The notes under the pieces are model-generated. The model was not told the DNA's origin and made no database searches. It saw nothing but the letters and a program-made list of their open reading frames with translations. Source: Halobacteroides halobius DSM 5150 (GTDB lineage: Bacteria > Bacillota > Halanaerobiia > Halobacteroidales > Halobacteroidaceae). Taken from it: a stretch of 64,000 bases of DNA. A program made the translations under genes and the position numbers. Below, piece after piece: positions 40,038 through 58,939 of this stretch. Every line of letters starts with the position of its first letter. Position 1 is the first letter of the stretch. The DNA lies in assembly GCF_000328625.1 (NCBI RefSeq), contig NC_019978.1, forward strand, positions 992,001 to 1,056,000. The letters run 5' to 3'.

Positions 40038-42332
40038 ATGGGATATGATAAAGTTAATAAATCTGCTAAGCGGGTAGATGCTTATGAGAAAGTAACGGGC
40101 AGGGCCAAATTTGGAGCTGATCATTACTTTCATAATATGTTATATGCTAAGGTGCTTATGTCTGACTACCCTCATGCAGAAATTTTGGATATTGATGTAA
40201 AACAGGCTAGAGAACTACCAGGCGTTAAAGCAGTATTGACAGCAGATAATATTCCTAATAATGAATTTGGGGTAATTATAGAGAACCAACAAGTATTAGC
40301 TAAAGAAAAAACTATGTATATTGGTGATGGAGTTGCTCTTGTGGCTGCAGAGAGCAAAAAAATTGCTAAAAGAGCACTTGAGTTAATTGAAGTAGAGTAT
40401 AAGGAATTAGAAGGAGTATATGATCCTTTAGTAGCTAGAAAAGCAGATGCTAAGTCAATTCATGCTGACTTAGATAATAATCAGGTTGTACATCATCCTC
40501 TACGGAAAGGGGATGTAAAAGAAGGATTTGCTAAAGCAGATGTTATCTTAGAACGGGAATATACAACTCAGTTTATTGAACATAGTTATATAGAACCTGA
40601 ATCTATAGTAGTAGTACCGTATGAAAGAAATTGTCTAGTTAGCATTTATGGTTCTATCCAAAACCCGTATGCTACTCGTGATGCTGTTGCTTCAGTATTA
40701 CAGACTGATTTAAGTAATGTTCGGGTGAATCAAAATAATATGGGAGGAGCTTTTGGAGGAAAAGATGAAAATATGTCCTCAATGGCAGCTAGAGCTGCAG
40801 TTTTAGCTTTAGAAACTGAGCGCCCAATAAAAATGGTTAATAGTCGAGAGGAATCTATGTTAGAAAGTTATAAAAGACACCCTTATTCTTTACAGTATAA
40901 AGTAGGAGCCAGTGAAGATGGTGAATTGTTAGCTATGGAGATTGAAGCAGTAGCTGATAGTGGAGCTTATGCTTGCCAAACACCATTTGTTACTTGGCGT
41001 TCTGTAGTTCAAGCTACTGGTCCTTATGAAATTCCTAATGTAAAAACTGATACTTATGGTTTTTATACTAATAATGTTTATACAGGAGCTATGCGTGGTT
41101 ATGGTTCACCTCCAACTATTTTTGCTCAAGAATCATTAATGGATGAGTTGGCCCAAGAATTAGATATAAAGCCAGATGAGTTGCGAAAAAAGAATATGTA
41201 TCGTAATGGTTCAGTAACTGCTAGTGGCCAGAAGCTAAATAAACATGAAGTAAGTTTAAAGCAAGTAATGTCTGAGGCTATGGAAGCTATTGATTATCAA
41301 GAAAAATATAATAAATATAGTAATGATCAACCTTGTGATAAGAAGCGAGGCATTGGGATGTCAATTAGTTTTCGAGGTGTTAGTTTAGGAGCTGAAGGGG
41401 TTGATGCTGCTGGTGCAATAGTATCTATTCAAAAGGATGGAAGCTTGATTATTCATGGTGCTTTAGCAGAAAATGGTCAGGGTTTAAAGACGGTCTTCTC
41501 TCAGATGGTAGCTGAAGAGTTAGGTGTTAGTTTAGATAGTATCAATTATATGGAAGTTGATACTTCTGTAGCTCCTGAAAGTGGTTCTACAGTTGCCTCT
41601 CGAAGTACCTTAGTAGGTGGTAATGCAGTTAAAGATGCTGCTGTAAAACTAAAGGGGATAATTAAAGAATTTACTGCTAAAGAGTATGATTTAGCAGAAG
41701 AAAATATTATTTTACAAGATGATTATCTATATACTACTGCTGGAGAAAAAATAGCTTCTTTCAAAGAGATTATTAGTCAAGCTTATGGCTCTGGAGTCTT
41801 TTTATCTGCTTATGGTTGGTATCAAAGTCCAGATATTAGTTGGGATGAAGAAACAGGTCAGGGAAGTCCATATTTTACTTATGTGTATGGTTGTCAGATA
41901 GCAGAAGTTGAGGTTGATACTGGAACAGGTCAAGTTGATGTTTTAAATATGACAGCAGCTCATGATGTAGGTAAGGCAATAAATCCAGCTAATGTAAGGG
42001 GCCAAATTTATGGTGGTGTTGTAATGGCTATGGGCCATTGTATTATGGAAGATTTAGAGACTGAGAATGGTTATATTAAGACCACTAATTTTGATGAATA
42101 TTTAATTCCAACCGCTAAAGATATTCCTGATATCACACCAATTATTGTAGAAAATCCTGATCCTGATGGGCCATACGGAGCAAAGTCTATTGGGGAACCA
42201 ACTTTAGAATTAGGTAGTGCTGCAATTAGTAATGCTGTTGCTCAAGCGACAGGTAAAAGAATCAGGGATTTACCACTCAATTTAGAACGAGTCTTGATTG
42301 GTCGCTCTTTGAGTAAAGGAGGTAATAAATAA
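40038..42332 (+). CDS. xdhA: Xanthine dehydrogenase-type hydroxylase, molybdopterin subunit
   Basis: The 764-residue large subunit of the xanthine oxidase family binds the molybdenum cofactor (in this context probably with a selenido ligand) and hydroxylates a purine or related ring. GGAFGGKDE (about 233-241), AMRGYGSPP (about 349-357), NGQGLKT and the active-site Glu in GAKSIGEPTLEL near 715 are all present. It is full length, unlike the split enzyme downstream. The FAD subunit starts at its stop codon (TAATG), and the Fe-S subunit follows. The precise substrate is not decided by sequence. Confidence 0.93.
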   Translation: MGYDKVNKSAKRVDAYEKVTGRAKFGADHYFHNMLYAKVLMSDYPHAEILDIDVKQARELPGVKAVLTADNIPNNEFGVIIENQQVLAKEKTMYIGDGVALVAAESKKIAKRALELIEVEYKELEGVYDPLVARKADAKSIHADLDNNQVVHHPLRKGDVKEGFAKADVILEREYTTQFIEHSYIEPESIVVVPYERNCLVSIYGSIQNPYATRDAVASVLQTDLSNVRVNQNNMGGAFGGKDENMSSMAARAAVLALETERPIKMVNSREESMLESYKRHPYSLQYKVGASEDGELLAMEIEAVADSGAYACQTPFVTWRSVVQATGPYEIPNVKTDTYGFYTNNVYTGAMRGYGSPPTIFAQESLMDELAQELDIKPDELRKKNMYRNGSVTASGQKLNKHEVSLKQVMSEAMEAIDYQEKYNKYSNDQPCDKKRGIGMSISFRGVSLGAEGVDAAGAIVSIQKDGSLIIHGALAENGQGLKTVFSQMVAEELGVSLDSINYMEVDTSVAPESGSTVASRSTLVGGNAVKDAAVKLKGIIKEFTAKEYDLAEENIILQDDYLYTTAGEKIASFKEIISQAYGSGVFLSAYGWYQSPDISWDEETGQGSPYFTYVYGCQIAEVEVDTGTGQVDVLNMTAAHDVGKAINPANVRGQIYGGVVMAMGHCIMEDLETENGYIKTTNFDEYLIPTAKDIPDITPIIVENPDPDGPYGAKSIGEPTLELGSAAISNAVAQATGKRIRDLPLNLERVLIGRSLSKGGNK

Positions 42333-45096: not shown

Positions 45097-46428
45097 ATGT
45101 TTATTTTAGGCCATGGAACAGTCGTTACTATGACTGAAGATGCTATGATTATTCGTGATGGTGGAGTGGTAGTGGACGGAGAAGAAATTATTAAGGTTGG
45201 AAAAACAAATAAATTAAAGGAAGAATATGCTAAGGCTGATTTTAGAGATGTATCAGGAAAATTGATAATGCCTGGATTGATTAATACTTACATGCATCTA
45301 TATAGTACTTTTGCTCGGGGGATGGATCTTAAGACAGATAATTCTCCTAAGAACTTTACTGAAATACTGAAAAAACTATGGTGGAGATTAGATGCCAAAT
45401 TAAATAAGGATGATATATATTATAGTGCTTTATATGCCATTATTGATAGTATAAAACGAGGAACTACGACCATTTTTGATCATCATGCTAGTTTTGGTTT
45501 TATTGATGGTAGCTTAGATATAATAGCTAAAGCAGTAAAGGAAGCTGGGATAAGAGCTAATTTATCATATGAGGTTTCTGATAGGCATGGTTTTCAAAAA
45601 GCAATGGCAGCTTTAAATGAAAATAAAAGATTTATAAATTCTCTAAAGGGTAAAGAGAATAATTATTTAGGAGGGACTATTGGTTTACATGCTTCATTTA
45701 CTTTAGAAGATAAAACTTTAGAGCAAGCAGCAAATTTAGCCGATGAATTAAAAGTTCCTTTTCATCTTCATACAGCTGAAGGATGGGCTGATGTAAAAAA
45801 TAGTAGACAAAGAGGTTATAAAGGAGTTATTGATAGATTAGATAGATATAATATCTGGCGGCCTCAAACATTAGCTATCCATGGGGTTTATTTAAGTAGA
45901 GATGAACTAGAAAAATTAGCCGATAAAAAATGTTATTTAATTCACAACCCCCAGTCAAATATGGGAAATGCAGTTGGTGTAGCTCCAGTTAAATCAGCTT
46001 TTGATTCTAGCCTTACAGTAGGGTTGGGTACGGATGGTTATACAACAGATATGTTTACAAGTACTAAAGTAGCTAATCTTTTACAGTCACACAAACAAGG
46101 TGATCCTCGGGCTGGTACTAATGAAGCAAGAAAAATGGCTCTAGTAAATAACAATCTCATTGCTAATAACTTCTTTGCTCCGGATTTAGGGCAATTAAAG
46201 CAAGGGGCTGCTGCTGATATCATTGTAGTAGATTATACTCCTCCGACACCTATTACTAAAGATAACTCCTTTTTTCATCTGCTAATGGGGTTACAAGGTA
46301 GTATGGTAGATACTACGATTATTGGTGGAAAAGTCCTTATGGAAAATCGGGAGGTGAAATGTGTAGATTATGAGCAGATATGTCGAAAAAGCCAAGAGCA
46401 AGCAAAAGATTTCTGGAGAAGATTTTAA
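45097..46428 (+). CDS. ssnA: SsnA amidohydrolase, with altered metal-binding His
   Basis: The 443-residue SsnA amidohydrolase is a standard member of selenium-dependent hydroxylase clusters and is thought to open or deaminate a purine-derived ring. Most signature residues are present: PFHLHTAEG, AIHGVYLS, LGTDGYTTDMF. However the first metal-binding His of the usual HxH is Tyr here (NTYMHLYSTF, codon TAC at 45289-45291), whereas the E. coli protein has SHNHFY as I recall it. The enzyme might be inactive, use another ligand, or contain a sequencing error. The next gene overlaps its 3' end by 59 bases. Confidence 0.9.
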   Translation: MFILGHGTVVTMTEDAMIIRDGGVVVDGEEIIKVGKTNKLKEEYAKADFRDVSGKLIMPGLINTYMHLYSTFARGMDLKTDNSPKNFTEILKKLWWRLDAKLNKDDIYYSALYAIIDSIKRGTTTIFDHHASFGFIDGSLDIIAKAVKEAGIRANLSYEVSDRHGFQKAMAALNENKRFINSLKGKENNYLGGTIGLHASFTLEDKTLEQAANLADELKVPFHLHTAEGWADVKNSRQRGYKGVIDRLDRYNIWRPQTLAIHGVYLSRDELEKLADKKCYLIHNPQSNMGNAVGVAPVKSAFDSSLTVGLGTDGYTTDMFTSTKVANLLQSHKQGDPRAGTNEARKMALVNNNLIANNFFAPDLGQLKQGAAADIIVVDYTPPTPITKDNSFFHLLMGLQGSMVDTTIIGGKVLMENREVKCVDYEQICRKSQEQAKDFWRRF

Positions 46429-47281
46429 AGGATATTTTGCGCCTGAAGGTATAGAAGGAGCAATTAATCTATTAGAAGAATATGGAGACCAAGTGGTTAT
46501 AGTGGCTGGTGGAACTGATCTACTAGTTGATTATAATGAGAGATTATATGATTTAGATGGTATCTTAGATCTAAAAAATATTGAGAAATTATCAAAAATA
46601 AATGTTAAAGAAGATCATATTGAGATTGGAGCTATGGTAACTCACACAGAAATTGAAAAATCAGCTAGTTTAAAAGAGTATTTACCTATATTAAGTCAGG
46701 CTGCAGCAGATGTTGGTTCTCCTCAAATTAGAAATCGAGGCACAATTGGAGGTAATGTTGTTACTGCTTCTCCAGCGGGTGATTTATTACCAGCGTTGTT
46801 AGCCTATAAGGCAGAGTTTGAATTGGTTTCTATTAAGGGAAAAGAGAGGGTATTAGCTAAAGATTTTTTTACAGGTCCTAAAAAGGCAGTTATTACTCCA
46901 GAACAATTATTAACCAAAATTATAATTCCTAAGCCTAAAGAAACTACATTTAGTGTTTGGAAAAAAGTAGGCAAAAGGAAAGCTTTAGCCATCTCAAGTA
47001 TAACCCTAGCTTTAGTTATTGAGTTTAATCAGGATAATCTAATTAGTGATGCTAGAGCTTGTATGGGGGCAGTAGCTCCTACTCCAATAGAGATTAAAGA
47101 ATTCAAGAGTAAACTACAAGATAAAAGTATAGAACAAATAGATTACCAAAAGTTGGGCCAAATAATAGCAGATAATATTTCACCGATTGATGATATAAGA
47201 GGAACTGAAGAATATCGTAGAGATACTGGAAGAGATATTATGATAAGTGCTCTAAAGGAATTAAATTCAAACTGGAGGTGA
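46370..47281 (+). CDS. ndhF: Nicotinate dehydrogenase-like hydroxylase, FAD subunit
   Basis: The 303-residue FAD subunit carries AGGTDLLVD and TIGGNVVTASPAGDLLP. It is about the size of Eubacterium barkeri NdhF (33 kDa), and the F-S-L-M gene order matches that enzyme. The ATG at 46370 lies inside ssnA (59-base overlap) with GGAGG about 15 bases upstream, so the exact start is somewhat uncertain; the flavin core begins near residue 20. It is followed by the Fe-S gene after six bases. Confidence 0.88.
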   Translation: MSRYVEKAKSKQKISGEDFKGYFAPEGIEGAINLLEEYGDQVVIVAGGTDLLVDYNERLYDLDGILDLKNIEKLSKINVKEDHIEIGAMVTHTEIEKSASLKEYLPILSQAAADVGSPQIRNRGTIGGNVVTASPAGDLLPALLAYKAEFELVSIKGKERVLAKDFFTGPKKAVITPEQLLTKIIIPKPKETTFSVWKKVGKRKALAISSITLALVIEFNQDNLISDARACMGAVAPTPIEIKEFKSKLQDKSIEQIDYQKLGQIIADNISPIDDIRGTEEYRRDTGRDIMISALKELNSNWR

Positions 47282-47287
47282 AATAAC

Positions 47288-47773
47288 TTGAAAATCACAC
47301 TAACAGTAAATGGTGATAGAAGGAAGGTAGAAACTACCCCAACTACTCGTTTGCTTGATCTGTTAAGGGATGATTTAGGCTTAACTGGTGCCAAAGAGGG
47401 GTGTGGAAAAGGTGAATGTGGTGCCTGTTCTGTGATAATGAATAATGAATTGGTAAACTCATGTCTTATTTTGGCGCCACAAGCAGATGGTGCAGAGATC
47501 TTGACTATAGAAGGGTTAAATGTTGAGGGGGATCTACATCCTATTCAAGAATCTTATATTGAAGCTGGTGCTATTCAATGTGGTTTTTGCATTCCAGGTA
47601 TGGTTCTAGCTAGTAAAAAATTACTAGATAAAAATCCCCACCCTAATGAAAAGGAAATAAGAAGAGGAATTTCAGGTAATATCTGTCGTTGCACGGGTTA
47701 TCAAAAGATAATAGATGCTGTTAAAATATCAGCAGAAAAATTAAATAGTAAAAAGGGGGGAGAACATGAGTAA
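47288..47773 (+). CDS. ndhS: Nicotinate dehydrogenase-like hydroxylase, 2Fe-2S subunit
   Basis: The 161-residue two-cluster ferredoxin subunit has CGKGECGACSVI, VNSC, QCGFCIPGM and GNICRCTGY, with all eight Cys present. It starts at a TTG with GGAGGTG upstream and overlaps the large-subunit gene by eight bases. Together with its neighbours it forms the second hydroxylase of the cluster. Confidence 0.93.
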   Translation: MKITLTVNGDRRKVETTPTTRLLDLLRDDLGLTGAKEGCGKGECGACSVIMNNELVNSCLILAPQADGAEILTIEGLNVEGDLHPIQESYIEAGAIQCGFCIPGMVLASKKLLDKNPHPNEKEIRRGISGNICRCTGYQKIIDAVKISAEKLNSKKGGEHE

Positions 47774-49079
47774 AAAGGTGGTCGGGAAGAATATAAAAAA
47801 GGTTGATGCAAAGGATAAAGTAACTGGTCAGGCCCCATACACCCGTGATATAAACTTTGAAGATATGTTATATGTGAAAGTCAAGAGGGCTACACGACCT
47901 CATGCTTATTTACGCAAACTTGATGTTAGTCAGGCAGAGCAACTAGCTGGGGTAGTTAAGATAATTACTGCTAAGGATTATCCTGATTTAAATAATTTTG
48001 GCTTAATTATAAAAGATCAGCCTGTCCTAATTGATATTGGTGATAAGATGCGATTCATGGGGGATGTTTTGGCTATAGTGATTGCTAAAACTGAAGAAAT
48101 AGCTACTAAAGCTCTTGAGTTGATAGAAGTTGAAGTTGAAGAATTAGAAATTATAACTGATCCATTAGAAGCTATGGAAGAAGATGTGCCAGCAATTCAT
48201 GAAGCTGAAAGCGAACTAATTTCTGAATATTTAGATAACAATATTTCTTCTAATAATATATTATGTGATCATTATCTAAAAAAGGGAGATGTAGAAGAAG
48301 GATTCTCTCAAGCTGATTTAATAGTAGAAAATGAATATAAGACACAACATATAGATCAGGTTCCCTTACAGGTAGAAGCTGGAGTAGGATTGTATGATGA
48401 AGAAACTGGATTAATTAAAATCTGGGCTGCTACCCAGTGGTTACATGATACACAAGCAGATATTGCTCAGTCTATAGGTCTTCCTAAAGAAAAAGTAAGG
48501 ATCATTCAGCCAACTATAGGTGGTGCCTTTGGAAAAAAAGAAGATATTTCGGTTCATATCCACCTTGCTTTAGCAGCTATGGAAGTAAAACAACCAGTTA
48601 AGTTCAGTTATACTAGAGAAGAATCAATGATTTCTCAATCTAAACGACATCCAATGACTATTAGACATAAAACTGGAGTAACTAATGAAGGTTATCTAAC
48701 AGCTTGGCAGACAGAAGTTATAGGTGATGTAGGTGCATATGCTTCAAGTAGTCCAGCAGTAGTTCATAAAAGTTTATATCATTGTACAGGGCCATATAAT
48801 GTAGAAAATGTCAAGGGAGTTTCTTATGCTGTTTACACAAATAACACTTATACAGGTGCAATGAGAGGATTTGGTGCTACTCAAATGGGATTTGCTTATG
48901 ATTCTCAGATAGATATTATAGCAGAAAAACTAGGTATGGATCCCTTTGAATTCCGTCTCCAAAACACTTATCAGCTAGGGTCAACAACCCCTAATGGTCA
49001 GGTTCTAACCAAAAGTGTAAATGTAAAAAGAACAATTCAAGAAGTAAAGGATATGTCGAAAAGGGGGGATGATCGGTGA
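47766..49079 (+). CDS. ndhL: Nicotinate dehydrogenase-like hydroxylase, large molybdopterin subunit
   Basis: The 437-residue protein corresponds to the N-terminal 60 percent of a xanthine dehydrogenase large subunit. It carries GGAFGKKED (about 256-264) and AMRGFGATQ (about 365-373) and ends after VNVKRTIQEV. The other part is the next gene, and their sum (766 residues) equals the 764 residues of the intact paralogue at 40038. Its size (about 48 kDa) fits E. barkeri NdhL (50 kDa). The stop overlaps the GTG of ndhM, and AAAGGGGGG supplies an SD for it. Confidence 0.88.
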   Translation: MSKKVVGKNIKKVDAKDKVTGQAPYTRDINFEDMLYVKVKRATRPHAYLRKLDVSQAEQLAGVVKIITAKDYPDLNNFGLIIKDQPVLIDIGDKMRFMGDVLAIVIAKTEEIATKALELIEVEVEELEIITDPLEAMEEDVPAIHEAESELISEYLDNNISSNNILCDHYLKKGDVEEGFSQADLIVENEYKTQHIDQVPLQVEAGVGLYDEETGLIKIWAATQWLHDTQADIAQSIGLPKEKVRIIQPTIGGAFGKKEDISVHIHLALAAMEVKQPVKFSYTREESMISQSKRHPMTIRHKTGVTNEGYLTAWQTEVIGDVGAYASSSPAVVHKSLYHCTGPYNVENVKGVSYAVYTNNTYTGAMRGFGATQMGFAYDSQIDIIAEKLGMDPFEFRLQNTYQLGSTTPNGQVLTKSVNVKRTIQEVKDMSKRGDDR

Positions 49080-50065
49080 AAAAATACGGTAAAGGAATTT
49101 CAACTATAATGTTTGGCTTTGGGTATGGAGAAGGATTTCCCGACCATTCTATTGCTTCAGTTGAAATCGAAGCTGGCGGAACTATTCTTGTTAAAACAGC
49201 AGCAGCTGATGTGGGCCAAGGGGTTTTAACGGTAGTTGCGCAGATTACAGCAGAAGTTTTAAAAGTTAGTCCTGATATAATCAAAGTTAGCCAGGGGGAT
49301 ACCCATTTAACAAAGAATGCAGGTTCTACTTCTGCTACTAGACAGACCTTTTTTACCGGTAATGCTGTAAAAGAAGCAGCAGAAGAATTATTAAGTAAGA
49401 TATATCATCATGCTAGCTTAGAATTTAGGAGTAATCACCCTGAAATGGGGGTAGAAAATGGTTATATCTTTAGACATGATAAGCCTAATAATAAAATTAG
49501 TTATTGGGATTTAGCTAATAAAGTAAAAGATAAGGGAGAAGAACTTAAAGCAGAGGCCTCTTACTTTCCTAAAACTTATGAACCAGATCCAGCTACTGGC
49601 CAAGCTAAAAAAGTATATGTAGCATATACATTCATGACCCAAGAGATTGAGGTAGAAGTAGATACCACTACAGGAGAAGTTGAAGTTTTAAATGTAAATA
49701 CAGCTATTGATTTAGGTAAAGCTATTAATCCTAAAGGAGCAGAAGGTCAGATAGAAGGAGGAACTGTTCAGGGTGTAGGGATGGCTCTTATGGAAGAACA
49801 AGTAATAAAGGAGGGAATAACTTTTAATCCTGATTTAAGTGGATATGTAATACCTACTGCTATGGATAGTCCTAATTTTAAATCTCGATTGGTTGAAGAT
49901 GAAGATTCAGATGGGCCGTTTGGTGCTAAGGGTATTGGAGAACCAACTACTATTGGTGCAGCGCCAGCAATTGCTAATGCTATATATGATGCTATAGGAA
50001 TTAGATTTTATCAACTGCCTATAACCCCTGATAGAGTAAAGAAGGCTTTAAAGAAAAGAGGATAA
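49076..50065 (+). CDS. ndhM: Nicotinate dehydrogenase-like hydroxylase, medium molybdopterin subunit
   Basis: The 329-residue protein equals the C-terminal 40 percent of the large-subunit fold. It carries the cofactor-binding ADVGQGVLT and SGSTSATR-like AGSTSATRQ region and the catalytic Glu in GAKGIGEPTTIG. It begins at a GTG whose SD is the AAGGGGGG at 49058-49066; an in-frame TGA just before (49070-49072) rules out a simple upstream extension. NdhL and NdhM are separate in E. barkeri too, so the split is probably natural. The substrate may be a purine rather than nicotinate, given the neighbours. Confidence 0.86.
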   Translation: MKKYGKGISTIMFGFGYGEGFPDHSIASVEIEAGGTILVKTAAADVGQGVLTVVAQITAEVLKVSPDIIKVSQGDTHLTKNAGSTSATRQTFFTGNAVKEAAEELLSKIYHHASLEFRSNHPEMGVENGYIFRHDKPNNKISYWDLANKVKDKGEELKAEASYFPKTYEPDPATGQAKKVYVAYTFMTQEIEVEVDTTTGEVEVLNVNTAIDLGKAINPKGAEGQIEGGTVQGVGMALMEEQVIKEGITFNPDLSGYVIPTAMDSPNFKSRLVEDEDSDGPFGAKGIGEPTTIGAAPAIANAIYDAIGIRFYQLPITPDRVKKALKKRG

Positions 50066-54463: not shown

Positions 54464-55057
54464 ATGATTACAGCAGTTATATTAGCAGCGGGTGAAGGAA
54501 GTAGAATGGGGACTTTAAAACAATTGTTACCTTGGGAAGATAGTACAATTTTGGAGACAGTGATTAAAAATATTGCAGAGACTAGATTTGTTGATGATGA
54601 AATTAGAGTTATCTTAGGAGCTCAAGCAGATAGAATTGAAAAGATCTTAAGTTGCTGGGACGAAAAGAGATTAAAAGTGTTAAGAAACAACAATTATAAG
54701 GAAGGCATGCTAACTACCGTGCGTCAAGGGATAAAAGATATTCCTATTACTACAGAATATATTATGTTAGCTCTAGGAGACCAGCCTTTAATAACTACTG
54801 ATATTTTTAATCTGGTTCTAAAAGAGTGTTTAAGAAAAAAACCGGATATAATGGTACCAGTAGTTAATGGAAAAAGAGGTCATCCTTTACTTATAAATAA
54901 AAGGCTAATTCCTGAAATTCATCTTCTTAAGAAACAAGGAGGATTACGTAACTTATTACATAAATATCCAGAAAGAGTATATCATTTTAATATTAATGAT
55001 GAAAGTATTATAGTTGATCTTGATTATTATGAAGATTATCAAAAACATAGAAGATGA
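54464..55057 (+). CDS. mocA: MocA-type molybdenum cofactor cytidylyltransferase
   Basis: The 197-residue nucleotidyltransferase has LAAGEGSRMGTLKQLLPW (about 7-24) and LGDQPLI (about 106-112). It attaches CMP to molybdopterin to give the dinucleotide cofactor of the xanthine dehydrogenase family. It is the usual neighbour of yqeC/yqeB. No strong SD is visible (AAGGATG is 17 bases upstream). A second relative begins at 63850. Confidence 0.92.
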   Translation: MITAVILAAGEGSRMGTLKQLLPWEDSTILETVIKNIAETRFVDDEIRVILGAQADRIEKILSCWDEKRLKVLRNNNYKEGMLTTVRQGIKDIPITTEYIMLALGDQPLITTDIFNLVLKECLRKKPDIMVPVVNGKRGHPLLINKRLIPEIHLLKKQGGLRNLLHKYPERVYHFNINDESIIVDLDYYEDYQKHRR

Positions 55058-55158: not shown

Positions 55159-55908
55159 ATGGGAAAAACATTACAAAGATCTTTAGATATTAAACCAGCA
55201 GATGTAATTACAGTAGTAGGAGCTGGGGGTAAAACTTCTACCATTATAGCTTTAGTACGAGAGCTAATTAGAAAGCGATTGATAATTACAACAACTACTC
55301 ATTTTAACAAATTTAAGCAATTTTATCATAAGGAGGTTTTGACTTCCAAGCAAGAAGATTTAATAAAAAAGATAAATAATATTTTAAGAGAGCAACCTAA
55401 CCAAAAAATAGTTATAGGTCAGAAAAGAATTGATGATAAAATCAAAGGTATTCCTCCGAGTTGAATAGATAATTTTAAAGCTACCTTTTCTAATTTTAAT
55501 ATATTAGTTGAGGGGGATGGTGCTGCGAAAAAACCAATTAAAGCTCCAGCTTCTTATGAACCCGTAGTTCCTAAAAAAACTGATATATTAATTCCAGTCT
55601 TAGGAATGAGTGTACTAGGGAATAAACTTAATGAGCAATATTGTCATCGCTTACAGCAACTTAGAAAACTAACTGATAAAAGTATAGTTGATCAGAAATT
55701 AATAGTAAAAATATTAACCTCAGTCAATTCATATGGTTATTATCAAAAAAGAGTGAGAGATTACATTCCTATTTTAAATCAGGTTACAAAGAATAATTTA
55801 GTAAGAGTAAGAAAGATTGCTTTTAATTTAATAGAGCTAGGTATCAAAAGAGTAATTATTGCTAATACTCGAGGTTATAATCCTGTATTAGAGGTAATTC
55901 AAAGCTAA
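55159..55908 (+). pseudogene. yqeC: yqeC, interrupted by one in-frame TGA
   Basis: The frame continues through 249 codons apart from a single TGA at 55462-55464 (codon 102, in GIPPS-stop-IDNF). On both sides it matches YqeC, the selenium-dependent hydroxylase maturation protein: P-loop-like VVGAGGKTSTI at the start, VEGDGAAKKPIKAPA after the stop, and ANTRGYNPV at the end. Homologues usually have Trp near this position as I recall, so a TGG-to-TGA change is the simplest explanation. No Sec hairpin is seen downstream. The ATG at 55159 has TAGGAG upstream. It may be a true mutation, a read error or read-through. Confidence 0.85.
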
Positions 55909-55924
55909 GATGATAGGGGGGAAC

Positions 55925-56770
55925 ATGTTTAATGATATGTCTAAAATAAATGTATTGCTTAAAGGTGGAGGGGATTTAGCCTCTGGGATTGCTTATAGAT
56001 TATATCAAAGTGGTTTTAATGTAGCAATTAGTGAGATTAAACAGCCCTTGATGGTTAGAAGAACAGTTTCTTTTGCTGAGGCTGTCTATAAAGGAGAACA
56101 TGAAGTAGAAGGGATAAAAGCTCAATTTACTACAGAATGGAGTCTTTTTAAAGCTATTATAGACCAAGGAGAAATACCTGTATTTATTAAGGAGCAATTA
56201 TCTTATTTTAAGGAAAGATTTAAGCCACAGGTAATAATAGATGGGCGGATGTTAAAGCAGAAACAAGAGACTAATTTAAAGGAAGCTTCTATAGTTATTG
56301 GTATAGGACCAGGGTTTAGGGCTGGGGAGGATGTAGATGCGGTTATTGAAACTTGTAGAGGGCATTATTTAGGGAGAGTAATTTACCAAGGGACTACCAT
56401 TCCTAATACGGGCCAACCAGGAAAAATCATGGGTTATAGTCAACAGAGGGTTTTACGTGCTCCTTGTGATGGCATATTTCGAAGTAAGAATAAGTTAGGA
56501 GATAAAATTAAGCAAGGAGAACTATTTGGACTGATAGGTGATAGACCACTAAAGGCAGAGCTTAGTGGAGTAATTAGGGGCCAAATCCACCCTGGGGTCA
56601 ATGTTAAAAAAGGTATGAAGATAGGTGATATAGATCCGAGAAATGATAGAGATTACTATAACAAAATTTCTGAAAAAGCTCTTGCGGTTGGTGGTGGAAC
56701 TTTAGAAGCTATACTACATTTGGCTAATAAAAAGCTAAAGGAGGAATCAGTTACCAGTGGAACAAATTGA
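55925..56770 (+). CDS. yqeB: YqeB selenium-dependent hydroxylase maturation protein
   Basis: The 281-residue protein has LLKGGGDLASGIAYRLY at the N-terminus (a nucleotide-binding loop) and a C-terminal biotin-like hairpin region (APCDGIFRS and AELSGVIRG). It belongs to the YqeB/EF2563 group found only with selenium-dependent molybdenum hydroxylases. It probably helps insert selenium into the molybdenum cofactor. The ATG at 55925 follows AGGGGGG. It overlaps the following gene by 14 bases. Confidence 0.9.
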   Translation: MFNDMSKINVLLKGGGDLASGIAYRLYQSGFNVAISEIKQPLMVRRTVSFAEAVYKGEHEVEGIKAQFTTEWSLFKAIIDQGEIPVFIKEQLSYFKERFKPQVIIDGRMLKQKQETNLKEASIVIGIGPGFRAGEDVDAVIETCRGHYLGRVIYQGTTIPNTGQPGKIMGYSQQRVLRAPCDGIFRSKNKLGDKIKQGELFGLIGDRPLKAELSGVIRGQIHPGVNVKKGMKIGDIDPRNDRDYYNKISEKALAVGGGTLEAILHLANKKLKEESVTSGTN

Positions 56771-57524
56771 TTTTTATACACAGATAGCAGTTGCTTATAA
56801 ACAGGATGAAAAAGCTATGGTCGGTACAATTACTGCCATTAAAGGGGATAGTAATTTTCAGTTTGATCCTGTAGGGAGTAAAATTTTAGTATATCAGGAA
56901 GATGAACTAGTTTATCCAACTAATCGAATCGAATTATGGCAACAAATTAGGGATAATATAGAATCATTTAATCAACTAATGGATTTAGATCATCCAACAT
57001 TAAAAAAAGTAGCTATTAGTCAGGAGACTGAAGTTGAGATCTATTTTGAGCCAATTATAGAAGAACCCCGATTATTAGTTTTTGGAGCAGGCCATGTTGC
57101 TCAGCCTTTGGCTCAGATAAGTAAAATGGCAGATTTTAAGGTGACAGTAATTGATGATAGAGCAGATATGGTAAATAAGCAACGCTATCCTCAGGCTGAT
57201 AAGCTAGTTTGTGCTGAATTTGATAACTATCTACAAGATTTAAAGATAAGAGAGAATGATTATTTAGTGATTATTACCCGAGGACATCAACATGATTATA
57301 AGGTTTTACGAGAGGTAGTTACAAGTAAAGCAAAGTATATAGGAATGATTGGTAGTAGCCGTAAAGTTAAAATATTATTTGATCAGTTAAGAGAAGAAGG
57401 TATAAGTCAAGAATTAATAGATAAGGTTTATGCCCCAATAGGAGTAGATATTGCTAGTGAAACTCCAGCAGAAATAGCTGTTTCAATTACTGCAGAGATG
57501 ATTTCTATAAGGAGGAATGAATAA
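56757..57524 (+). CDS. XdhC-family maturation protein, Rossmann-domain form
   Basis: The 255-residue protein has a degenerate XdhC/CoxI N-terminal part and a complete C-terminal NAD-type Rossmann fold (LLVFGAGHVAQPLAQI at about 106-121, VTVIDDR, then IGMIGSSRKVK). XdhC proteins bind the molybdenum cofactor and deliver it, sulfurated or selenated, to the hydroxylase. The GTG start has AAAGGAGGA about 12 bases upstream. TAATG overlap with the next gene suggests the two proteins act together. Confidence 0.9.
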   Translation: MEQIDFYTQIAVAYKQDEKAMVGTITAIKGDSNFQFDPVGSKILVYQEDELVYPTNRIELWQQIRDNIESFNQLMDLDHPTLKKVAISQETEVEIYFEPIIEEPRLLVFGAGHVAQPLAQISKMADFKVTVIDDRADMVNKQRYPQADKLVCAEFDNYLQDLKIRENDYLVIITRGHQHDYKVLREVVTSKAKYIGMIGSSRKVKILFDQLREEGISQELIDKVYAPIGVDIASETPAEIAVSITAEMISIRRNE

Positions 57525-57844
57525 TGGATAGAGATTTAGTAGATAAAATTATAGAGTATAAGGGCGAGGATTATTTGGCCCTTGCTACTGTCATTTCGGC
57601 TACAGGATCTTCACCAAGAAATAGTGGAGCACAAATATTAGTTTATCCTAATGGTAGTATTTATGGAACGGTTGGAGGAGGTTTATCTGAAGCAGAGACT
57701 ATTAAAAAAGCCCAAGAGTTGATACAAATTGGGGAGAGTAAAAAATATTCATTTGATATGAGTAATGACCAAGTGGCTAAAGCTGGGGGAGTATGTGGGG
57801 GCCAAGTTGAGATTTTTATTGAAACTATAAAAGTAAGTAATTAA
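57524..57844 (+). CDS. XdhC/CoxI N-terminal domain protein
   Basis: This 106-residue protein is only the N-terminal cofactor-binding domain of XdhC (ATGSSPRNSGAQILVYPNG, TVGGGLSEAE, AGGVCGGQVEIFIE). The upstream gene has the Rossmann half with a weak N-terminal domain, so the two complement each other. Cys in GGVCGGQ is the usual conserved residue. Starts at TAATG with SD AAGGAGGAA. Confidence 0.88.
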   Translation: MDRDLVDKIIEYKGEDYLALATVISATGSSPRNSGAQILVYPNGSIYGTVGGGLSEAETIKKAQELIQIGESKKYSFDMSNDQVAKAGGVCGGQVEIFIETIKVSN

Positions 57845-57913: not shown

Positions 57914-58939
57914 ATGGGAATTAAAAAGATACCTGTTGAAGAAGCAGTAGGTAGAGTGGTAGCTCATGATATGACTCAAATTGTCCCAGAAAAATTTAAA
58001 GGAGCTAGATTTAAAAAAGGGGATCTGATTGATAATAGTGATATATCTACATTAAAGGATATGGGCAAAGAACATATATATGTTCTTACTTTAGAGGAAG
58101 GAATTATCCATGAAGATGATGCAGCTTATCGAATTGCTAAGCATGTAATCGGAAAAAATATTGCTTTATCAGAAGTTAATGAAGGAAAAATTACTCTTAA
58201 GGCGCAGCAAAAAGGTATTTTAAAGGTAGAGAAAGATTTATTATTAAAAGTTAATAGTAGTAATCAAATTTTAATAACTTCTAGTCATAATAATATGTTT
58301 TTACAGGCTGGAGATTCTATAGCTGGAGTGAGGATTAATCCTTTAACTATTGAAGAAGAGAAGTTAGAAAAAGTTGAAGATATTATTAGAGATCAAAGCA
58401 TTTTTAAGATAGAACCTATTGTTAATAAGAAAGTAGGCATAGTAGTCACTGGGAGTGAAGTTTATAATGGGCGCATTAAGGATCAATTTGTGCCAACTTT
58501 ACAGAAAAAGTTTCAGCGCTGGGGAGGAGAATTATTAAATTCTATTATTGTTCCTGATGAAGTTGATCAAATTACAGCAGCTTTATCTAGTTTAAAAGAA
58601 TCTGGGGCAGAGATACTGATTACTGGTGGGGGAATGTCAGTTGACCCTGATGATTTGACGCCCCAAGGAATAAGAAATACTGGAGCTCAGATTATTAAGT
58701 ATGGCATACCAGTATTACCAGGAAATAAGTTAATGTTGGCTTATTGGGATGATATACCTATACTAGGACTACCAGCCTGTGTTATTTTTGAAAAAATTAC
58801 TGTTTTTGATCTAGTGTATCCTCGTCTTTTAACTGAAGAACATATAACAAGAAATGATTTGATAGAGTTAAGTTATGGTGGATACTGTCACCATTGTGAA
58901 ATATGTCAGTTTCCTAAGTGTTCTTTTGGTAGATTTTAA
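57914..58939 (+). CDS. Molybdopterin-binding protein with C-terminal Cys cluster
   Basis: The 341-residue MoeA/MogA-fold protein has VGIVVTGSEVYNGRI (about 174-188) and TGGGMSVDPDDLTP (about 237-250), which bind molybdopterin. The N-terminal half (VEEAVGRVVAHDMTQI) resembles MoeA domain I. The tail GGYCHHCEICQFPKCSFG has four cysteines spaced C-x2-C-x2-C-x4-C, perhaps a metal or Fe-S site. It is a common member of selenium-hydroxylase clusters, probably for cofactor trafficking. SD taggaaggggatta. Confidence 0.85.
   Translation: MGIKKIPVEEAVGRVVAHDMTQIVPEKFKGARFKKGDLIDNSDISTLKDMGKEHIYVLTLEEGIIHEDDAAYRIAKHVIGKNIALSEVNEGKITLKAQQKGILKVEKDLLLKVNSSNQILITSSHNNMFLQAGDSIAGVRINPLTIEEEKLEKVEDIIRDQSIFKIEPIVNKKVGIVVTGSEVYNGRIKDQFVPTLQKKFQRWGGELLNSIIVPDEVDQITAALSSLKESGAEILITGGGMSVDPDDLTPQGIRNTGAQIIKYGIPVLPGNKLMLAYWDDIPILGLPACVIFEKITVFDLVYPRLLTEEHITRNDLIELSYGGYCHHCEICQFPKCSFGRF

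Follow-up and report, generated by a model that had tools for sequence, protein, structure and literature searches.

The window examined here, a stretch of 64,000 nucleotides from Halobacteroides halobius DSM 5150, contains a yqeC gene that is interrupted by a TGA codon. The genome is equipped to decode selenocysteine (Sec): it has selA, selB and a gene for tRNA-Sec, and its selD and grdA genes contain TGA, so UGA can mean Sec in this organism. The locus raises the question of whether the TGA specifies Sec, is read through in some other way, reflects an error in the sequence, or is an ordinary nonsense change. An earlier note on this DNA had preferred a simple nonsense change to Sec. That preference is supported by the present analysis, with the ancestral codon refined to a probable TGG or TTA, and the best explanation, to which a probability of roughly 0.7 can be given, is an ordinary nonsense substitution from one of these codons in the sole yqeC of a selenium-using bacterium.

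The interrupted yqeC reading frame

The yqeC frame lies on the forward strand at positions 55159 to 55908 and comprises 249 codons, from an ATG at 55159 to a TAA at 55906–55908. Base reading and translation of the window place a TGA at codon 102 (55462–55464), where the sequence of 55456–55473 is CCGAGT TGA ATAGATAAT. That this TGA is in frame within yqeC, as the earlier note held, is borne out by the bases and by matches to YqeC profiles on either side. If read through, the frame exceeds the cut-offs of both the Pfam YqeC family (PF19842; 135.5 bits) and TIGR03172 (144.8 bits, against a cut-off of 73.05). Codons 1–101 score 48.8 bits and codons 103–249 score 72.6 bits with the Pfam profile; with TIGR03172 the C-terminal half alone reaches 88.7 bits and the N-terminal half alone 45.5. 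The two halves cover consecutive positions of the Pfam profile (1–81, then 92–144) and therefore represent a single interrupted gene, not two genes.

Termination at the TGA would leave an N-terminal fragment of 101 codons (55159–55461, forward strand), which includes the P-loop-like GAGGKT motif and is without 27 of the 40 columns that are invariant in a six-sequence alignment. The C-terminal half, 147 codons at 55465–55905 on the same strand, carries no further lesion, and its first in-frame ATG, GTG or TTG is the ATG at 55606. A search for a ribosome-binding-site pattern followed by ATG gave no useful site for yqeC. When the six-sequence alignment was compared with the PDB, the best relative (E = 0.00024) was a Mur ligase aligned over query residues 15–96, a match taken to reflect a shared nucleotide-binding motif. 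The gene is single-copy in a genome assembled as one contig of 2,649,255 bases and estimated as 99.99% complete, and the intact second yqeC whose existence the earlier note had proposed checking is not found there.

Neighbouring genes

Directly upstream of yqeC, at 54464–55057 on the forward strand, is an intact mocA/ygfJ-like nucleotidyltransferase gene that itself ends in TGA and scores 160 bits with TIGR03310, under that model's cut-off of 186. Directly downstream is the intact partner gene yqeB (55910–56770, forward strand, with a possible start at ATG 55925), which scores 334 bits with TIGR03309 (cut-off 220). Xanthine-dehydrogenase-like subunits are encoded among positions 40038–42332 and 46370–50065, none of them scoring above a curated cut-off. 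One of these, a molybdenum subunit, is split over two genes (47766–49079 and 49076–50065) that overlap in GTGA. The nicotinate dehydrogenase of Eubacterium barkeri is also split, and the window's molybdenum subunit can be likened to it. An XdhC-family maturation factor is likewise divided, its halves being encoded by separate genes, in reversed order, at 56757–57524 and 57524–57844; two XdhC-like genes (encoding 255 and 107 amino acids) lie in the same order at locus L002, which carries the closest homologue of this yqeC. Positions 57914–58939 encode a 341-residue protein with a Cys- and His-rich tail and without an NCBIfam match at 1e-20.

Codon 102 and the state of yqeC in related genomes

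The alignment column corresponding to codon 102 was compared in 103 homologous loci, from which two fragments of a single gene (L020 and L025, genome G042) were excluded. Of the 103, 42 have Trp, 20 have Leu, 10 have Thr, 8 have Phe and a single one has Cys, and a TGA occurs at this column in the window's yqeC alone. The 103 loci contain at least five apparently duplicate pairs (L004/L042, L005/L048, L009/L052, L012/L106 and L024/L105), all with Trp; with each pair counted once, Trp is present in 37 of 98 loci. The description of this position in the earlier note as a usual Trp is correct insofar as Trp is the commonest residue, and is qualified by the frequency of Leu, which is also the residue (TTA) in the closest homologue, the yqeC of genome G009, 67% identical to that of the window. 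Because the outgroup carries TGG at this column and G009 carries TTA, the ancestral codon was probably one of these two.

An even sample of the phylum yielded YqeC matches in 135 of 398 genomes, 113 of them above the TIGR03172 cut-off. Among the matches listed, the only internal stop is that of the window's yqeC, in a comparison that is blind to stops outside the family model and would miss an N-terminal TGA such as that of G009. In a second set of 61 genomes, consisting of that of H. halobius and its relatives, 23 have a YqeC match, and three of these (the window's own genome, G009 and G004) have a stop noted; the set listed no other genome of the same species or genus, and no close sister species was found. 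The TGA of G004 (L011) is at the extreme end of the frame, outside the conserved domain, and is not counted as an interruption. In G009 the TGA is near codon 7 (L002:1516–1518), after ATG ATG and ahead of the conserved domain, in that genome's only yqeC; its yqeB (L174) is intact and on a different contig. Among the open reading frames listed, the first common start codon past this TGA is a GTG at 1597, beyond the P-loop, and a rarer start, such as an ATT after AAGGAG, is possible on sequence grounds. No relatives were found in viral contigs.

Two observations among these relatives count against an ordinary nonsense change. The first is that, in the order to which H. halobius belongs, yqeB and yqeC occur together in 8 of 13 genomes (G000–G012) and are both missing from the other 5, with no exceptions. 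This distribution suggests that the pair is retained or lost jointly, and therefore argues that YqeC is needed wherever yqeB is kept. The second is the TGA in G009, which is less well explained by plain chance: that sister genes should both have been hit is somewhat more than coincidence would lead one to expect. One-step paths from sense to stop codons in yqeC number 58 to TAA, 34 to TGA and 28 to TAG, and by this crude count the chance of both hits being TGA is about 0.08, which is weak evidence.

Consequences of a probable nonsense change

The nonsense interpretation is favoured by a TGA that is in frame between two halves of one family and by a yqeC that is single-copy, as well as by the residues of the column, the tRNA complement and the use of TGA as a stop (below); yqeC is otherwise intact, and its partner yqeB is intact. 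Release factor 2 would be expected to end most translation at codon 102, producing a 101-residue fragment that keeps the P-loop and lacks the later half of the conserved core. The near-cognate tRNA-Trp(CCA) may occasionally decode UGA, a leaky stop, as Trp. Since no other residue is as frequent as Trp at this column, a small amount of normal YqeC may be made. Persistence of the TGA would then mean that the change is recent, or that little or no YqeC is required.

Identity between the yqeC genes of the window and G009 is 58% before the TGA and 71% after it, and after the TGA the window gene and that of G009 are about equally distant from the outgroup G043 (45% and 46% identity, respectively). 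As identity is no worse past the stop and the distances to the outgroup are alike, neither comparison points to prolonged decay. The comparison would not date the change, the nearest sequence, at 67% identity, being too distant.

With regard to the requirement for YqeC, Haft and Self proposed an accessory role for it in the selenium-dependent molybdenum hydroxylases, one that may be confined to a smaller subset of them (PMC2276186, from the part available). In the available part of a study on Clostridium difficile (PMC11448449), deletion of yqeC alone gave no growth phenotype, and a yqeB yqeC double mutant was only partially rescued by yqeB. The suggestion in the earlier note that the strain might mature its hydroxylases poorly is weakened because the C. 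difficile yqeC deletion by itself showed no growth phenotype, the incomplete rescue of the double mutant being the only effect. According to the accessible part of Belinky et al. 2021 (PMC7918605), bacterial genes that are otherwise conserved widely carry in-frame stops, which are mostly short-lived; the paper also cites a read-through of 6% at TGA in Bacillus subtilis. The present case fits this picture. Literature searches (YqeC with stop codon; titles and the starts of abstracts) returned no report of an interrupted yqeC, and none was found on selenoproteins of Halobacteroides.

Possible sequencing error and the use of TGA as a stop

An error of sequencing or assembly would mean that the organism has a sense codon at this position and an intact yqeC. 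Such an error would need to involve a single base, the gene and its neighbourhood are otherwise intact, and the stop is the sole internal one among the family matches listed from the 398-genome sample. The explanation is nonetheless unlikely, given the quality of an assembly that is in one contig and 99.99% complete, and given that no cluster of similar interruptions is apparent by eye in a 304-kb sample (the window and 12 further stretches). In that sample 27 long same-frame neighbours are split by one stop, of which by eye two look like single interrupted genes: yqeC, with its TGA, and an integrase-like frame (L160:6329, minus strand) broken by a TAG. The latter has the appearance, by eye, of a decayed insertion sequence.

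TGA closes 31 of the 189 frames of at least 200 codons in the same 304 kb, and UGA is therefore a working, normal stop in this genome. Global recoding of UGA was rejected on this basis and on that of the Trp tRNAs, which have the anticodon CCA.

Possible read-through of the TGA

It is also conceivable that the TGA has been kept, with leaky decoding as Trp by a near-cognate tRNA setting a low but useful level of YqeC. Read-through of this near-cognate type has been proposed to be frequent (from the available portion of PMC7918605). The absence of visible decay past the stop, the prevalence of Trp at the column and the TGA in the only yqeC of G009 fit such a role. The TGAs of the window and G009 are at different positions, however, so neither is conserved, and the complement of tRNAs offers no dedicated means of reading UGA. 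Rfam models detect 75 tRNAs, all of which (75/75) were recovered by ARAGORN, and no anticodon UCA was found among them. No suppressor tRNA for UGA other than tRNA-Sec was found among the tRNAs of the genome. The three tRNA-Trp genes (L139, L140 and L148) differ in sequence and all have the anticodon CCA; read by eye, they have 5-bp anticodon stems, GAGC in the D stem and G24, and look normal. A tRNA-Trp with A24 is the Hirsh suppressor. UGA can also be read by a tRNA-Trp with a 4-bp anticodon stem, according to the part of PMC13092985 available. Neither mechanism applies to tRNAs with 5-bp stems and a GAGC D stem, and neither a tRNA-Trp with anticodon UCA nor one with CCA on a 4-bp stem, as would accompany reassignment of UGA to Trp, is present. 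Functional read-through is accordingly regarded as improbable.

A more elaborate version holds that in a Sec-decoding lineage lone yqeC genes repeatedly gain in-frame UGAs that are read through at a low level, and that competition for the UGA between release factor, tRNA-Trp and tRNA-Sec makes the amount of a maturation factor for the selenium cofactor depend on the selenium or translation state of the cell. This scenario is a speculative one and is considered highly improbable.

Selenocysteine and split-gene alternatives

That residue 102 is Sec, and YqeC here a selenoprotein, is suggested by the Sec-decoding capacity of the genome; a check of selC and selB had been proposed in the earlier note, and both selB and the tRNA-Sec gene are present. 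In homologues of a selenoprotein the corresponding column would be expected to hold Cys (or Sec), whereas Cys is found in just 1 of 103 loci and Leu in the closest homologue. The 50 bases from the yqeC TGA fold at −1.5 kcal/mol, and 181 of 200 shuffled sequences fold at least as well; by comparison, the first 48 bases of the selD Sec site fold at −16.0 kcal/mol. Published limits for the bacterial SECIS (a hairpin 16–37 nt after the UGA, with G in the first two loop positions and a stability of −7.5 kcal/mol or lower; PMC13188914, as given in the part available) are satisfied by no candidate hairpin at the yqeC TGA, whereas the selD site includes a hairpin of −11.3 kcal/mol that satisfies them. 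The same screen passes 7 of 221 codon positions of yqeC and only one of the two positive controls; since it misses grdA, a known Sec gene, the negative folding result alone is not conclusive. Together with the column residues it led to the rejection of Sec at codon 102, which is a very remote prospect, and upholds the earlier note's view that neither Sec nor a SECIS element is present. Least credible of all is a split gene whose halves are made as separate polypeptides that act together. In its favour, neither half has another stop, but restart within the gene was rejected because no in-frame ATG, GTG or TTG occurs for 48 codons after the TGA, the next lying past the VEGDGAAKKPIKAPASYEPVVP stretch with its many invariant residues.

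Comparison with known systems

The locus serves mostly as a caution: finding TGA within a selenium gene does not in itself prove a selenoprotein, even where the genome uses Sec. If YqeC is truly lost here while the hydroxylases work, the strain would amount to a naturally occurring knock-out with relevance to the role of YqeC, a role that the C. difficile deletion leaves unsettled in the available part of PMC11448449.

The window gene matches YqeC (PF19842, TIGR03172), a putative accessory of selenium-dependent molybdenum hydroxylases, in both of its halves. Its setting agrees as well, a purine-oxidation cluster with a mocA/ygfJ-like gene on one side and yqeB on the other; unlike any other family match listed from the 398-genome sample, it is shown with an internal stop, the TGA at codon 102. 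It shares with bacterial selenoprotein genes, such as selD and grdA of the same genome, an in-frame TGA in a Sec-decoding background, but differs from them in having neither a Cys/Sec column nor a SECIS-like hairpin within published limits. With its one stop, no other lesion and no visible decay thereafter, yqeC resembles the genes with in-frame stops described in the accessible part of PMC7918605.
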